Of a stretch of DNA of 64,000 nucleotides, positions 19,578-42,455 are shown piece by piece (positions within the stretch are counted from its first letter, which is position 1; each line of letters begins with the position of its first letter). Source of the stretch: Actinomycetaceae bacterium (lineage in GTDB: Bacteria; Actinomycetota; Actinomycetes; Actinomycetales; Actinomycetaceae); the NCBI GenBank assembly GCA_028724905.1, contig JAQYTG010000018.1, positions 347,878 through 411,877 of the forward strand, written 5' to 3'. Below the pieces are notes generated by a model. It did no database searches. It was given only the letters and a program-made list of their open reading frames with translations, and was not told where the DNA came from. The position numbers and the translations under genes were made by a program.

Positions 19578-22500
19578 GTGATGAGTTCGGTTCTTCTTAA
19601 GATTGGCCGCTGGTGTGCGCGCCATTCTTGGAGGGTGCTCATTGCTTGGATACTCGCTCTTGGCGCTCTCGGATTTGGTTTCAGCTCCGTGGGGATGCAG
19701 CTATCGAACTCGTTTAATATCTCATCCACAGAATCCATGATAGGCGTGGATATTTTGCGCGAACGCCTGCCCCAAGCCAGCGGAGTATCTGAAACCGTGC
19801 TGATCTCTGTCTCAGATGAGGCTTCACCTGATGGGGCTGCATTTGAGGGCACCTCTCTATCTGATGCAGCCACTGCCAGCGCAGCCACCGCCGCAGACTC
19901 TGCCACATCTACTGCTGCCAATGAGCAGCCCACTTCTAGTGAGCAACCTGATGACGGCGGACAGCCTGGCGCTGGCGGGGATCTCGCCATCGACCAGCAC
20001 CGAGCTGCCATCGAAAAATTCGTGAGCAACGTCAATACAATTTCCGGCATCTCGATGGCCTCCGATCCTTTCGCTGAGCAAACGCGAGCCATCACCGCTG
20101 ACGGCAAACACGCCCTTATACAGGTGCAGACGGATTCCACTGTGGCTGCCTACTCTGCCAACGCCGACGGCAAGGCCAACACCGTCAAAAATCAGATTGC
20201 CAGCTACGCCCGCGAGCTCGAATCGTCAGACCCAGCACTCTCAGTGCTGATTGGCGGCAATATCGGCCAGACGGCCGGCGTCGAGCTCTCCATTATCGAA
20301 GCTCTCGGGGTGCTCGTAGCCGCCGCCGTCCTCTTCGTCACCTTCGGCAGTCTGCTCGCTGCCGGCATCCCGATTATTTCCGCCGTCGTCGGCGTGGGCG
20401 TGGGGATGCTCGGCATTTTGGTGGCCGCCAATTTCACAGATATCAACGCCGTCACCCCAGTGTTGGCAGTGATGATCGGCCTCGCCGTCGGCATTGACTA
20501 CGCGCTGTTTATTATGAGCCGCGCCCGCGAATATCTGGTACAGGGGATTTCCCCCGTTGAAGCTGCTGGGCGGGCGGTGGCTACTGCTGGATCGGCAGTG
20601 GTTTTCGCTGGCATCACCGTGATTATCGCGCTGTGTGGCCTCGCGGTGTGCCGGATTCCTTTCTTGACGGCGATGGGGGTCGCAGCTGCATTTATGGTAG
20701 CGGTAGCCGTGAGCGTCGCTCTCACAGCTATCCCCGCTTTCCTTGGACTACTAGGGAAACGCTTGATCCCCAAAAAGCCCAAGAAAGCTGCCCGTCTCTC
20801 ACCGGCGTCACCGGCAGCTCCGGCGTCTTCGGTATCACCAACGCCTCCAGCATCTCCGGCGTCACCTGCAACTCCTGCATCTCGGGCGTTTCCAACCTCG
20901 GCTACATCAGCTGCATCGCTTACTTCATCCACCGCATCGGCGGTGGTTGCCGCAACCGCATTGCCCGCAGCAGCCACCTCCTCTGGTTCCCGCCTAGCCA
21001 CTGGTGGTTCCCGCCTAGCCACTGGCTGGATTGATGCCGTCATGCGTAGACCGGCTCTGTTCGCCATAGCGGTGATTGCGCTGCTTGGCGCCGGATCGGT
21101 GCCTTTAGCTGGCCTGTCTCTCTCGCTCGTTGATAACGGATACGAGCAGCCTGGCACCCAAGTGCGCGAGACGTACGATGCCATCTCACGCACTTTCGGA
21201 GAGGGTTATAACTCCCCCATTATTGTGATTGCCGATATCGTACAGAGCACCGATCCGCTGGGGTTGGTGAGCGATCTCTCTGACGACCTGGCCGCTATCG
21301 ACGGCGTGGAGAAAGTGGCGATAGGGACGCCCAACCAAGACGCTTCCCTCGCTTTTATCGAGCTGATTCCCTCCACCGGCCAAGCCAATCCAGCCACTGA
21401 GCGAATCGTCAATGATATTCGCGCCGATGCTCCCGCTCTCGAACAGCGTTACGGCATTTCAAATCTGATGGTCACGGGTATCACGGCTGTCGCTGTAGAC
21501 ATTGCTGCGGTACTCAACGATGCACTACTCCCGTTTGGGATCGTCGTAGTGGGGCTGTCCATTATTTTGCTGATGATCGTCTTTCGCTCAATCGCGGTAC
21601 CGCTCACGGCCACTTTAGGCTACGTGCTCTCCCTCGGAACGGGGCTAGGGGCAGTTGGTGCAATTTTCGGCTGGGGCTGGCTCGCCGATCTCTTCCACGT
21701 GACCAAAGTCGGCTCCGTTATCTCGTTTTTGCCGGTAATCGTGATGGGTATTCTCTTCGGTCTAGCCATGGACTACGAGGTATTCCTCGTCTCCCGAATG
21801 CGCGAGACCTGGATCCACACATCCGACGCCCGCAGAGCTGTGCGTGAGGGGTTCATCGGCTCCGCTAAAGTAGTGACGGCAGCCGCCCTCATTATGACGT
21901 CCGTCTTCGCGTTCTTCATCCCTGACGGCAATAAGTACATTAAGCCTATTGCCGTGGCTCTCACCGTGGGCATCTTCGCCGATGCATTCTTGGTGCGCAT
22001 GACGTTCATTCCCGCCATCATGGCGCTGCTGGGTAGGCGCGCATGGTGGATTCCGGCCTGGCTAGAAAAACGGCTGCCTATGGTAGACGTCGAAGGCGAG
22101 GGCTTGGCTCGCACGCTCGAACATTCAGACTGGGTGGATCGTCACGGCGAAGCTGAAGTGCGGCTCGACTCTGTGAGCGTGGGTGACGCCAGTGGCGACG
22201 TCTTCTCCGAATTGTCGCTCATCGTGCGTCCACGTCAATTTGCTGTGGCGCGTCTCGACACGTTCCTTGCCCGCTCCACGCTCGCCGCACTGCTCGCTGG
22301 TCGAATCCAACCGCACGACGGCGTGAGCGTGATCTCTGGCCGTCCGCTGCCCGACGGTATGTCTGCCATTCAAGCCTCCACGTATATGCTTGACTATCCC
22401 GATGCTTCCCTAATTCCGTACATGACGCGGCTCGTGGTGTGTGCTGATCCGCCAATGCAAGCATGGGCAGCCCTAGAGCGAGCACATCAACGCGGGATCG

Positions 22501-22856
22501 CCGTGCTCGCTATCGTGGCTCCTGACTATGAGCTTCCCCTGTCGGTGCGTGCCATAGCCGCTGACGCCATAGCTCAAGCAGCGCAGGAGATAGCGGTGAT
22601 AACGGTGCCCAGCGCCGACGACCCTGACGATCTCGCTAGCCGCGACGCCGCCGGCACCCCCACTCCCCGCAACGCTTCTGGCTCGGGGCGGAGTTCTGGC
22701 TCTGCTACTCACCGCAGCGGAAAAATCGCACGCACCTCAGCTCGACTCACCTCGGCGGCTTTCACATCGGCGCGCCATGCTGCACATTCGGCGCTTTCTC
22801 GCCGCTCAGAGCACGCAGATTCGCCTCAGAGCAGTCAGCATAGGAGCCAGCCATGA
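19578..22856 (+). CDS. MMPL/RND-superfamily transporter with low-complexity insertion and C-terminal degenerate ABC-like domain
   Basis: Two blocks of MMPL transmembrane segments (e.g. GIDYALFIMSRAREYL; GLAMDYEVFLVSRMRETW); extra ~250 aa C-terminal region. Confidence 0.92.
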   Translation: MMSSVLLKIGRWCARHSWRVLIAWILALGALGFGFSSVGMQLSNSFNISSTESMIGVDILRERLPQASGVSETVLISVSDEASPDGAAFEGTSLSDAATASAATAADSATSTAANEQPTSSEQPDDGGQPGAGGDLAIDQHRAAIEKFVSNVNTISGISMASDPFAEQTRAITADGKHALIQVQTDSTVAAYSANADGKANTVKNQIASYARELESSDPALSVLIGGNIGQTAGVELSIIEALGVLVAAAVLFVTFGSLLAAGIPIISAVVGVGVGMLGILVAANFTDINAVTPVLAVMIGLAVGIDYALFIMSRAREYLVQGISPVEAAGRAVATAGSAVVFAGITVIIALCGLAVCRIPFLTAMGVAAAFMVAVAVSVALTAIPAFLGLLGKRLIPKKPKKAARLSPASPAAPASSVSPTPPASPASPATPASRAFPTSATSAASLTSSTASAVVAATALPAAATSSGSRLATGGSRLATGWIDAVMRRPALFAIAVIALLGAGSVPLAGLSLSLVDNGYEQPGTQVRETYDAISRTFGEGYNSPIIVIADIVQSTDPLGLVSDLSDDLAAIDGVEKVAIGTPNQDASLAFIELIPSTGQANPATERIVNDIRADAPALEQRYGISNLMVTGITAVAVDIAAVLNDALLPFGIVVVGLSIILLMIVFRSIAVPLTATLGYVLSLGTGLGAVGAIFGWGWLADLFHVTKVGSVISFLPVIVMGILFGLAMDYEVFLVSRMRETWIHTSDARRAVREGFIGSAKVVTAAALIMTSVFAFFIPDGNKYIKPIAVALTVGIFADAFLVRMTFIPAIMALLGRRAWWIPAWLEKRLPMVDVEGEGLARTLEHSDWVDRHGEAEVRLDSVSVGDASGDVFSELSLIVRPRQFAVARLDTFLARSTLAALLAGRIQPHDGVSVISGRPLPDGMSAIQASTYMLDYPDASLIPYMTRLVVCADPPMQAWAALERAHQRGIAVLAIVAPDYELPLSVRAIAADAIAQAAQEIAVITVPSADDPDDLASRDAAGTPTPRNASGSGRSSGSATHRSGKIARTSARLTSAAFTSARHAAHSALSRRSEHADSPQSSQHRSQP
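20984..21025 (+). repeat. 21-bp perfect tandem duplication inside the MMPL gene
   Basis: tggttcccgcctagccactgg x2, encodes GSRLATGGSRLATG. Confidence 0.95.
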
Positions 22857-25264
22857 AACGCACGAAGCACTATCGGCTCATGTTGAGCGTGGTCGTCATT
22901 TTGCCGATGTTCTTTTTCCTCGCGCTACTCGGCGCGAACACTGAGCAGCTAAGCACCTATGGTTCACCACAAGCGGCCATCGTAAATAATGATTCCCCCG
23001 TTACTCTCACCACCGGCCAGATATTACCCGCTGGTAGACAGGTGATTGCCACCCTCACCGATCCGAAGCGTGAAACTCGTTTCGAGTGGGCAGTGGTGAG
23101 CTCTGCATCTGCTGAAAATGGACTGAAAGACGGCACCTATGAGGCCGTCGTGGACATCCCACAGAATTTCTCTGCCTCCGTAGCTGGAATTTTGCAAAGC
23201 ACATCCACAACCCCTGGCACGCTCATTGTGCGTACCAATGGGACATCAGCTCTGCTGGCAGATCTCTCAAACGACATCGTCAGTGCAGCCGGAAAAGATC
23301 TCAGCACCTCGTTCACCGTCTCCTACCTCACCGAATCGCTCGCCGCTACCAGCCAGATTAAAGATGGATTCAGTCAGGCTGCTGATGGCGCCGGTCAGCT
23401 TGCTGATGGCGCTAGACAACTAGCGGATGGCAATGCCCAGCTTGCCGATGGCGCCGCTCAGGCTGCTGATGGCGCCGGTCAGCTTGCTGATGGCGCTAGA
23501 CAACTAGCGGATGGCAATGCCCAGCTTGCTGATGGCGCCGCTGAATTAGCCTCGGGAGTTAGCCAGCTCAGCGCTGGTACGCAGCCGCTGCACGCCGGAG
23601 CCTCAGCGCTTGCCAGCGGGTTGCGGCAATACGTGAACGGCGTCAATCAAGCTGCTGACGGCTCCATACCGCTCGCCGCCGGAGCGAAGGAGTTTGCTGG
23701 AGGCGTTGCCCAATACGTGAATGGCGTGCAGCAAATTTACGACGGCATCACCACCCCTCAGCCAGGTCAGAGCACATCTATGCTCGGTGGAGCGCAACAG
23801 CTGGCCGACGCACTCACAGCGGTGGCCAGCGGTATTCACAGCGTAGCCGACGAGATTGTGAAACTGCTTCCCGAGGGAATCACTGCCGCGTCGGCAAGCG
23901 CACAACTGCTCTCCGACGCCTTCGACGAGCTCACCACACTCATTGAACAATGCGGCGCCGGAGATCAAAATGCCTGTGCCCAAGCGACGCAGGGAACGGC
24001 TACCACCGCGCAAGAGCTAGCCAAGTTGGTGACGCAGCTGCAACAAGTGGCTGAGCTAGCCGAAGCTGGAAAAATTAACTTAGAAGAGCTGACAAAAATC
24101 ACGAATCCCGTCGATCAGCTAGCAGGCGGGGCACGCTCACTCGCCGATGGGCTTGGCACACTTTCCGAGCAGATGAAATCGAATATGCTCGGCGACAATG
24201 CGGCGGCTCTCACGGCAGGCGGCACCCAACTGGCCGATGGCGTGGCCGAACTCTCTGACGGGCTTGGGCAGCTCAAGGCTGGCGCACCTCAGCTACTCAA
24301 CGGCGCATCTGCGCTCTCCGGTGGCACATCTGAGTTAGCTGACGGCACATCGCAGCTGGCCGGAGGCGCTCAAGCATTGGCGAACGGCGCCCGCGAAGCT
24401 GCTGACGGAACAGCGCTATTTGCCAACGGCACTACTCAGGCTGCTGACGGTCTTGGGCAACTTGCCGACGGCGCTTCAGCGCTCACCGACGGTGGCCAAC
24501 AGCTGACGAGCGGATCACAGCAGCTAGCGAGTGAGCTGGATAAAGCGGCGCAACAAATTCCCACATACACGCGCACCGATGCTGAAAAAACAGCTCAGGC
24601 CTTGGGGACGCCCGTGAGCGTCTCTGCAAGCAGTGCTCTCGTCGATCCTCGCTCAGCTCTCGCTCCTGGAATTATTGCGCTCGCCCTCTGGCTAGGCTCA
24701 TTCGGAGTCATTATTTACCGCAGCTCCATGACGGACGACAAGCTCAGAGAACCATTCACCCCGCTGGCACTGATCACTCGATCTCTGGTCTCAGCTATCG
24801 GTATTGGGGCTGCACAGAGCCTGCTGGTGATGATCGGGCTTGCCGTCAGCCGCGTACCTATCGCACATCTGTTCTGGTTGATTATTGTGCTGCTACTATC
24901 TTCGTTCACGATGATAGCCTTGCACGTGGCGTTTACCGCCACACTAGGTATGAAAGGCGGAGGGGTTCTCTCTCTGGTGTTCCTCGGGCTGCAACTCGTG
25001 TCGCTCAGTACTCTCCTGCCCGTCGCTTCTCAATCCGCTCTAGTCAGTGCACTACACATATTTTTGCCAGTGCCACAAGCTCAAGATGCCCTAACTAGCG
25101 CGATCACAGGAGTTGGCTCCAGCTCGGTGGCAGTGTGGATGCTCATTTTCTGGTTCCTCGCCTCCGGTTTCATCTCCGTGGCAGCTGTGGCCAAGCGCCG
25201 CGCTGTGAGCGTGCCGTCACTGCGGGCGTTTGCTGCCCACTACTGGCCACTCATCCGACGCTGA
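22853..25264 (+). CDS. YhgE/Pip family membrane protein with repeated QLADGA motifs
   Basis: N-terminal TM + PQAAIVNNDSPV, VDIPQNFSASVAGI, repeated ADGAxQLADGA segments, C-terminal TM block; ATGA overlap with the MMPL gene. Confidence 0.92.
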   Translation: MKRTKHYRLMLSVVVILPMFFFLALLGANTEQLSTYGSPQAAIVNNDSPVTLTTGQILPAGRQVIATLTDPKRETRFEWAVVSSASAENGLKDGTYEAVVDIPQNFSASVAGILQSTSTTPGTLIVRTNGTSALLADLSNDIVSAAGKDLSTSFTVSYLTESLAATSQIKDGFSQAADGAGQLADGARQLADGNAQLADGAAQAADGAGQLADGARQLADGNAQLADGAAELASGVSQLSAGTQPLHAGASALASGLRQYVNGVNQAADGSIPLAAGAKEFAGGVAQYVNGVQQIYDGITTPQPGQSTSMLGGAQQLADALTAVASGIHSVADEIVKLLPEGITAASASAQLLSDAFDELTTLIEQCGAGDQNACAQATQGTATTAQELAKLVTQLQQVAELAEAGKINLEELTKITNPVDQLAGGARSLADGLGTLSEQMKSNMLGDNAAALTAGGTQLADGVAELSDGLGQLKAGAPQLLNGASALSGGTSELADGTSQLAGGAQALANGAREAADGTALFANGTTQAADGLGQLADGASALTDGGQQLTSGSQQLASELDKAAQQIPTYTRTDAEKTAQALGTPVSVSASSALVDPRSALAPGIIALALWLGSFGVIIYRSSMTDDKLREPFTPLALITRSLVSAIGIGAAQSLLVMIGLAVSRVPIAHLFWLIIVLLLSSFTMIALHVAFTATLGMKGGGVLSLVFLGLQLVSLSTLLPVASQSALVSALHIFLPVPQAQDALTSAITGVGSSSVAVWMLIFWFLASGFISVAAVAKRRAVSVPSLRAFAAHYWPLIRR
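23375..23542 (+). repeat. 84-bp near-perfect in-frame tandem duplication
   Basis: Two copies encoding QAADGAGQLADGARQLADGNAQLADGAA. Confidence 0.95.
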
Positions 25265-42274: not shown

Positions 42275-42340
42275 TTCCCCCTCCAACAAATAACGCTTCA
42301 ATAGGCTCTATTATCAGTAGAATCAAGCATTTTCGCGATT

Positions 42341-42455
42341 TCATTCAAGTGATTGGCGGGTTTTCATTCAAGTATTTGGCGGGTTTTCATTCAAGTATTT
42401 GGCGCAACTTCGTTCAAGTAATTGGAGATTTTTCGCTCAAGTTTGTGGCATTTTT
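42341..42455. repeat. 23-bp direct repeats, 5 contiguous degenerate units (iteron-like or multi-copy IS end)
   Basis: tcattcaagtgattggcgggttt / tcattcaagtatttggcgggttt / tcattcaagtatttggcgcaact / tcgttcaagtaattggagatttt / tcgctcaagtttgtggcattttt. Confidence 0.92.

Follow-up and report, generated by a model that had tools for sequence, protein, structure and literature searches.

The window analyzed here is a 64,000-nucleotide stretch of contig JAQYTG010000018.1 from an Actinomycetaceae bacterium. It carries a gene for an MMPL transporter whose end overlaps the start of a gene for a YhgE/Pip-family protein. The features of this locus, in window coordinates, are:

19578-22856, + strand: MMPL open reading frame of 1,092 aa (PF03176, E = 1.4e-66)
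19578-22082, + strand: MMPL (RND-type) transporter body, residues 1-835 (PF03176, E = 1.4e-66)
22083-22145, + strand: linker helix with conserved D-V-E-G-E-G-L...W (D837, E839, G840, and W852 invariant in 17 orthologues)
22113-22592, + strand: predicted degenerate ABC nucleotide-binding domain (NBD) core, or pseudo-NBD, tail residues 11-170 (AlphaFold, Foldseek, and profile against the PDB)
22254-22277, + strand: lost Walker A position, LDTFLARS, residues 893-900 (alignment with GPEGSGKT of L081 and with others)
22299-22304, + strand: G908-R909, a pair conserved family-wide and retained despite loss of the P-loop
22431-22448, + strand: Walker-B-like strand LVVCAD (alignments; strand E117-121 in the AlphaFold model)
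22602-22853, + strand: C-terminal extension, residues 1009-1092, predicted disordered and fast-evolving (mostly pLDDT 39-56; dN/dS)
22853-22856, + strand: ATGA overlap of the MMPL stop and the YhgE start, read directly from the sequence
22853-25264, + strand: YhgE/Pip-family protein, ABC-2-type membrane parts flanking a long helical stalk (PF12698, E = 4.7e-13; matches to TIGR03061, TIGR03062, and TIGR03929)
23339-24556, + strand: extracytoplasmic helical stalk of YhgE with xxxLxxG heptads (TIGR03057, E = 2.7e-50; model helices 163-300 and 448-568)
24647-25258, + strand: C-terminal transmembrane block of YhgE, ABC-2/ABCG-H like (profile and Foldseek)

The MMPL body scored 225 bits in a Pfam search, above the PF03176 cut-off of 20.5. 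Its Asp-Tyr pairs D307-Y308 and D732-Y733, which we take by analogy with MmpL3 to be the proton-relay positions, are invariant or nearly so in 17 orthologues. A Ser/Pro/Ala low-complexity linker (20802-21025) joins the two MMPL halves and includes an exact 21-base tandem duplication at 20984-21025. The tail (residues 836-1092; 22083-22853) lies C-terminal to the last MMPL transmembrane block; a preliminary description, made from the letters alone, had placed its start at 22084, one base after its reading frame begins. The DVEG start of the linker helix is common to tail-less MMPLs, which terminate soon after it. Elsewhere in the window, a low-GC stretch (40-44 kb, GC 0.449) contains an array of a 23-base unit (TTTCATTCAAGTAATTGGCGGGT, 3.8 copies) at 42339-42449.

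The tail alone gave no Pfam match at E ≤ 10 and matched, among NCBIfam models, weak ABC models only (CydD, E = 0.028). An alignable tail is present in sixteen relatives of the window MMPL, and a profile of all 17 orthologous tails (A1, 17 rows) was compared with the PDB. It matched 203 chains at E < 1, with ABC NBDs in the lead (MlaF, 2.8e-5; IrtB, 3.7e-5), and the matches to ABC NBDs cover the N-terminal half of the tail. An AlphaFold2 model built with the A1 alignment reached pLDDT 93-98 across most of tail residues 11-170 and was low beyond about 175. Foldseek returned 710 PDB matches to this model at E ≤ 0.001, again with ABC NBDs on top (for example, FtsE 6z63, E = 1.2e-7, probability 1.00); the TM-scores are moderate (about 0.4), computed over the whole 257-residue query. 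Because profile, predicted fold, and structural matches all point to it, we assign the first ~170 residues of the tail to a degenerate ABC NBD. The preliminary description had read such a domain into ~250 aa after the last MMPL block. The sequence it quoted is exact and the domain order it recognized goes beyond chance, though only the first ~170 residues form the domain and residues 1009-1092 are modeled with low confidence or as disordered. The AlphaFold and Foldseek comparison it proposed could have refuted it, either by finding no P-loop NBD similarity or by predicting disorder throughout; neither occurred. A disordered or unrelated tail is ruled out up to residue about 1005 by the model and its matches, and holds for the last ~85 residues. 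Two weak matches that resembled further homologues (L016 and L018, identical to L036 and L037) turned out to be ordinary two-domain ABC ATPases with generic ABC similarity.

Alignment reveals several losses within the domain. First, the Walker A motif GxxGxGK[ST] is absent from the window protein: LDTFLARS is aligned to GPEGSGKT of a fused relative (L081), in agreement with the earlier reading that the Walker A glycines and lysine are missing. Second, the stretch between Q-loop and signature, with the helical subdomain, is not present, and the Walker-B-like LVVCAD follows straight on; the LSGGQ that the same reading had failed to see is indeed not there. Third, the catalytic Glu is missing (LVVCAD is followed by P), as is the H-loop His, at whose position AIVAPD is found. 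From these lost motifs we infer that the pseudo-NBD is inactive and has lost catalysis; what we say of ATP binding and hydrolysis is likewise inferred.

Other features of the domain are retained. G908, R909, G915, and P925 are conserved in decayed domains and in NBDs encoded by separate genes, and R909 is present in 100% of 54 decayed and 18 separate domains, at a position that is mostly L in canonical ABCs. The core gave pN 0.15 and pS 0.74 between the window and L020, and two further comparisons of close relatives yielded dN/dS of 0.18 and 0.21 for it. Evolution is much faster in the last ~85 residues (dN/dS 0.24-0.63 where defined). Synonymous sites are close to saturation in these comparisons. 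As judged from substitution patterns, the core is under purifying selection.

We searched for the tail across Actinobacteria. The A1 profile matched 167 of 396 genomes of the order at E ≤ 1e-8; most of the matches listed were frames of MMPL size, with a smaller number of ordinary or separate ABC proteins. A wider profile, A3, matched 158 of 395 genomes of the class, many of the matches being separate NBDs or ordinary ABC proteins. PF00005 was matched by only 9 of 56 family members at E ≤ 0.01. Carriers include Microbacterium, Nocardioides, Tessaracoccus, Brachybacterium, and Leucobacter, as well as Cutibacterium avidum, Bifidobacterium panos, Dermabacter hominis, Peptidiphaga, and Bowdeniella. 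These order- and class-wide matches and named carriers rule out a quirk of a single genome.

Presence of the tail coincides with presence of YhgE. As in the window itself, the fused MMPL-NBD was directly followed by YhgE in 59/59 fetched loci, a count that leaves aside one frame-broken locus (L091), and the distance from the MMPL stop to the YhgE domain ranged from -46 to +111 nt. None of 18 tail-less related MMPLs in this first set had YhgE nearby. A second set of 80 loci, retrieved independently and with a few genomes common to both sets, initially comprised 59 loci with both tail and YhgE, 20 with neither, and 1 at a contig end. L220, counted among those with neither, proved to have both past a frame break; its reassignment gave 60 with both and 19 with neither (YhgE beside 0/19 tail-less MMPLs). 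The joining of MMPL and pseudo-NBD is a trait of the family that is widespread, under selection, and linked to YhgE.

Three further observations concern these loci. L091 (404-5242, G287) was considered as an MMPL beside a separate NBD; the two lie in different frames, and it was therefore treated as a frame-broken fusion, the break being either a sequencing error or real. At L187:1229-3654 (G013), the MMPL is split across two frames and has neither pseudo-NBD tail nor YhgE, whereas a sister of that genus, Peptidiphaga gingivicola (G047), has kept MMPL, tail, and YhgE; in this pair, loss of the tail and of the YhgE partner go together. Lastly, a divergent TetR-type regulator with the motif GFTRGAFYSNF lies ~200-400 bases upstream of the MMPL (L207-L286). 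A motif search found it at 32/61 tailed versus 0/19 tail-less loci, and no TetR-type gene with this motif occurs in the window.

The YhgE protein of the window matched PF12698 (ABC2_membrane_3) above the cut-off (4.7e-13). The N-terminal YhgE model TIGR03061 (E = 1e-23; 84 bits versus a cut-off of 96) and the C-terminal model TIGR03062 (E = 1e-17; 64 versus 102 bits) fell below theirs, and similarity to EsaA was weak (NCBIfam). A profile of residues 612-786 matched ABCH at E = 0.002, and Foldseek placed the transmembrane block beside ABCH-9C and ABCG5/G8 (rmsd 3.7-3.8 Å over about 195 columns). The model has a pLDDT of 74, and its Foldseek E values are weak because long helices dominate. On this profile and model evidence, the last transmembrane block of YhgE resembles ABCG/ABCH permeases. 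Within the stalk, two 84-base repeats (23374-23542) are 98% identical, likely a recent expansion of the heptad region.

Versions with a P-loop, which the preliminary description had proposed to survey, exist both fused to MMPL and as separate genes adjoining YhgE. A separate NBD-like gene lies directly upstream of YhgE, without an MMPL, in f37 (Streptomyces-sized genomes), f35, f38, f22, f14, f13, and f8. These separate NBDs mostly have a Walker A with Lys or Arg, have no LSGGQ or H-loop His, and mostly carry Asp at the position of the catalytic Glu. Fusions with an intact GK[ST] occur in f45, f35, f57, f17, and f15 (L148, L149, L153, L154, L151, L081, and L078) and in two named loci (L244 and L276), and three fusions (L035, L089, and L091) have no P-loop yet have the helical region. 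Two f35 loci (L142 and L145) carry two NBD-YhgE pairs in tandem, which suggests duplication of the two-gene unit.

In a YhgE tree, the separate-NBD rows form one side of a branch with support 99. The GK-bearing fusions require three changes on this tree, so repeated loss of the P-loop is more plausible than repeated gain. When the NBD tree is rooted with canonical ABCs, the separate genes take the basal position, and the fusions form a nested group (98) that also takes in a few separate genes; support at the basal node is 56, and the alignment is short. Since the separate genes are basal, we infer that a separate NBD-YhgE unit apparently came first, was fused to MMPL, and that the ATPase then decayed repeatedly. 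The constant adjacency of YhgE to the hybrid suggests that two pump types merged and that the ATP engine decayed later. Because the separate NBDs also lack LSGGQ, the catalytic Glu, and the H-loop, it is possible that the ancestor was an inefficient ATPase from the start.

Given that the MMPL keeps its Asp-Tyr pairs while the NBD has no catalytic motifs, the most economical reading is that MMPL and YhgE form a proton-driven export complex and that the pseudo-NBD acts there as a coupling or assembly domain. We regard it as probable, although complex, export, and cargo are all inferred. The MMPL gene would encode a proton-driven exporter with the decayed remains of an ABC NBD attached, a domain that in other genomes has its own gene upstream of YhgE; YhgE itself would be a permease of the ABC-2 type bearing a large extracytoplasmic stalk. 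Together they would form one export complex, for which there are no contact data. Proton motive force acting through the MMPL would substitute for ATP hydrolysis, and the pseudo-NBD would be the cytoplasmic piece linking MMPL and YhgE. The preliminary description had proposed that the MMPL exporter carries an attached, inactive ABC fold and is encoded together with YhgE, the two genes overlapping at ATGA; profile, AlphaFold, Foldseek, and the locus survey bear this out, with function still inferred. The helical subdomain and the core of an NBD normally form the groove for the permease coupling helix. The putative coupling loop of YhgE showed an identity of 0.28 in decayed lineages versus 0.38, at equal background, in pairs that are not independent; a specific loss of this loop was not borne out, merely a modest trend. 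With the helical subdomain missing and the loop seemingly less constrained, docking would have to be non-canonical.

The pseudo-NBD might instead regulate or assemble the MMPL itself, through nucleotide sensing, localization, or oligomerization, with YhgE a functionally separate operon neighbor. Cytoplasmic C-terminal regions do occur in other MMPLs, the few fusions that retain Walker A might bind nucleotide, and the coupling loop appears relaxed in decayed lineages. We nevertheless consider this unlikely, though it cannot be set aside lightly: neither sample contains an exception to the pairing of tail and YhgE, tail-less MMPLs have no YhgE, and separate NBDs adjoin YhgE even where there is no MMPL. 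It is harder still to credit that a canonical ATPase from elsewhere pairs with the pseudo-NBD in an asymmetric dimer and that ATP still powers YhgE. Such pairs of a degenerate and an active NBD are well known from heterodimeric ABC exporters, and YhgE is ABC-2 like; however, no NBD gene adjoins the fusion in the window, and the domain here has neither the helical subdomain nor the signature that a normal NBD sandwich requires. That the tail is a slowly decaying, non-functional relic, as P-loop loss in many fusions and the fast-evolving far C-terminus might hint, we judge very improbable, given a well-predicted fold, purifying selection on the core, residues conserved across families, and retention of the domain in all YhgE-linked MMPL copies examined.

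For the proton-driven complex, the cargo would probably be a lipid or other hydrophobic compound bound for or crossing the cell envelope. In Saccharopolyspora hirsuta, YhgE and MMPL genes with neighboring locus tags are induced 3.82x and 3.33x by cholesterol (PMC9782250); this fits a shared lipid-related role, although a tail in that MMPL has not been established. More tentatively, the family may represent a hybrid class in which an ABC-2 permease swapped its energy source: its ATPase would have been fused to an MMPL, lost catalysis several times independently, and persisted as a non-catalytic coupling domain.

A literature search restricted to open-licence papers found no description of the MMPL-pseudo-NBD-YhgE architecture. 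Each part belongs to a known family; what is new, relative to the sources searched, is how they are combined, together with the decay series. RND and ABC transporters are assigned to distinct classes, each with an energy source of its own, and here a widespread family joins both. Its surviving stages, from a separate NBD gene through a P-loop-bearing fusion to a dead domain, would reveal how one form of energy coupling can be exchanged for another, and their gradation makes that question directly testable. The YhgE/Pip proteins, which are poorly understood, would also gain a partner and a role.

Compared with known systems, the window MMPL shares its transporter body and the Asp-Tyr pairs of the two transmembrane repeats with MMPL/RND proteins (MmpL3 and relatives; PF03176). 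Described members have no ABC-like domain, whereas the window MMPL has one, and it scored 167 of 1400 bits against the NCBIfam MmpL3 model, far below the cut-off. The tail shares its predicted fold and N-terminal sequence pattern with ABC NBDs (PF00005; MlaF, FtsE, and IrtB) but differs from them in being fused to an MMPL and in lacking Walker A, the helical subdomain, LSGGQ, the catalytic Glu, and the H-loop. Like YhgE/Pip/EsaA proteins and ABC-2 permeases (ABCG and ABCH), the window YhgE combines ABC-2 parts with a stalk of xxxLxxG heptads; unlike them, it has no intact ATPase partner within the window, and the energy source has apparently changed. The MmpS5L5 pump, too, joins an MMPL transporter to a long helical structure outside the cytoplasm, a coiled-coil tube; MmpL5 itself contributes the coiled coil there (PMC12501195), whereas in the window system the long stalk comes from YhgE. 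That the YhgE stalk is functionally equivalent to the MmpL5 coiled coil is, by this analogy, only a suggestion.
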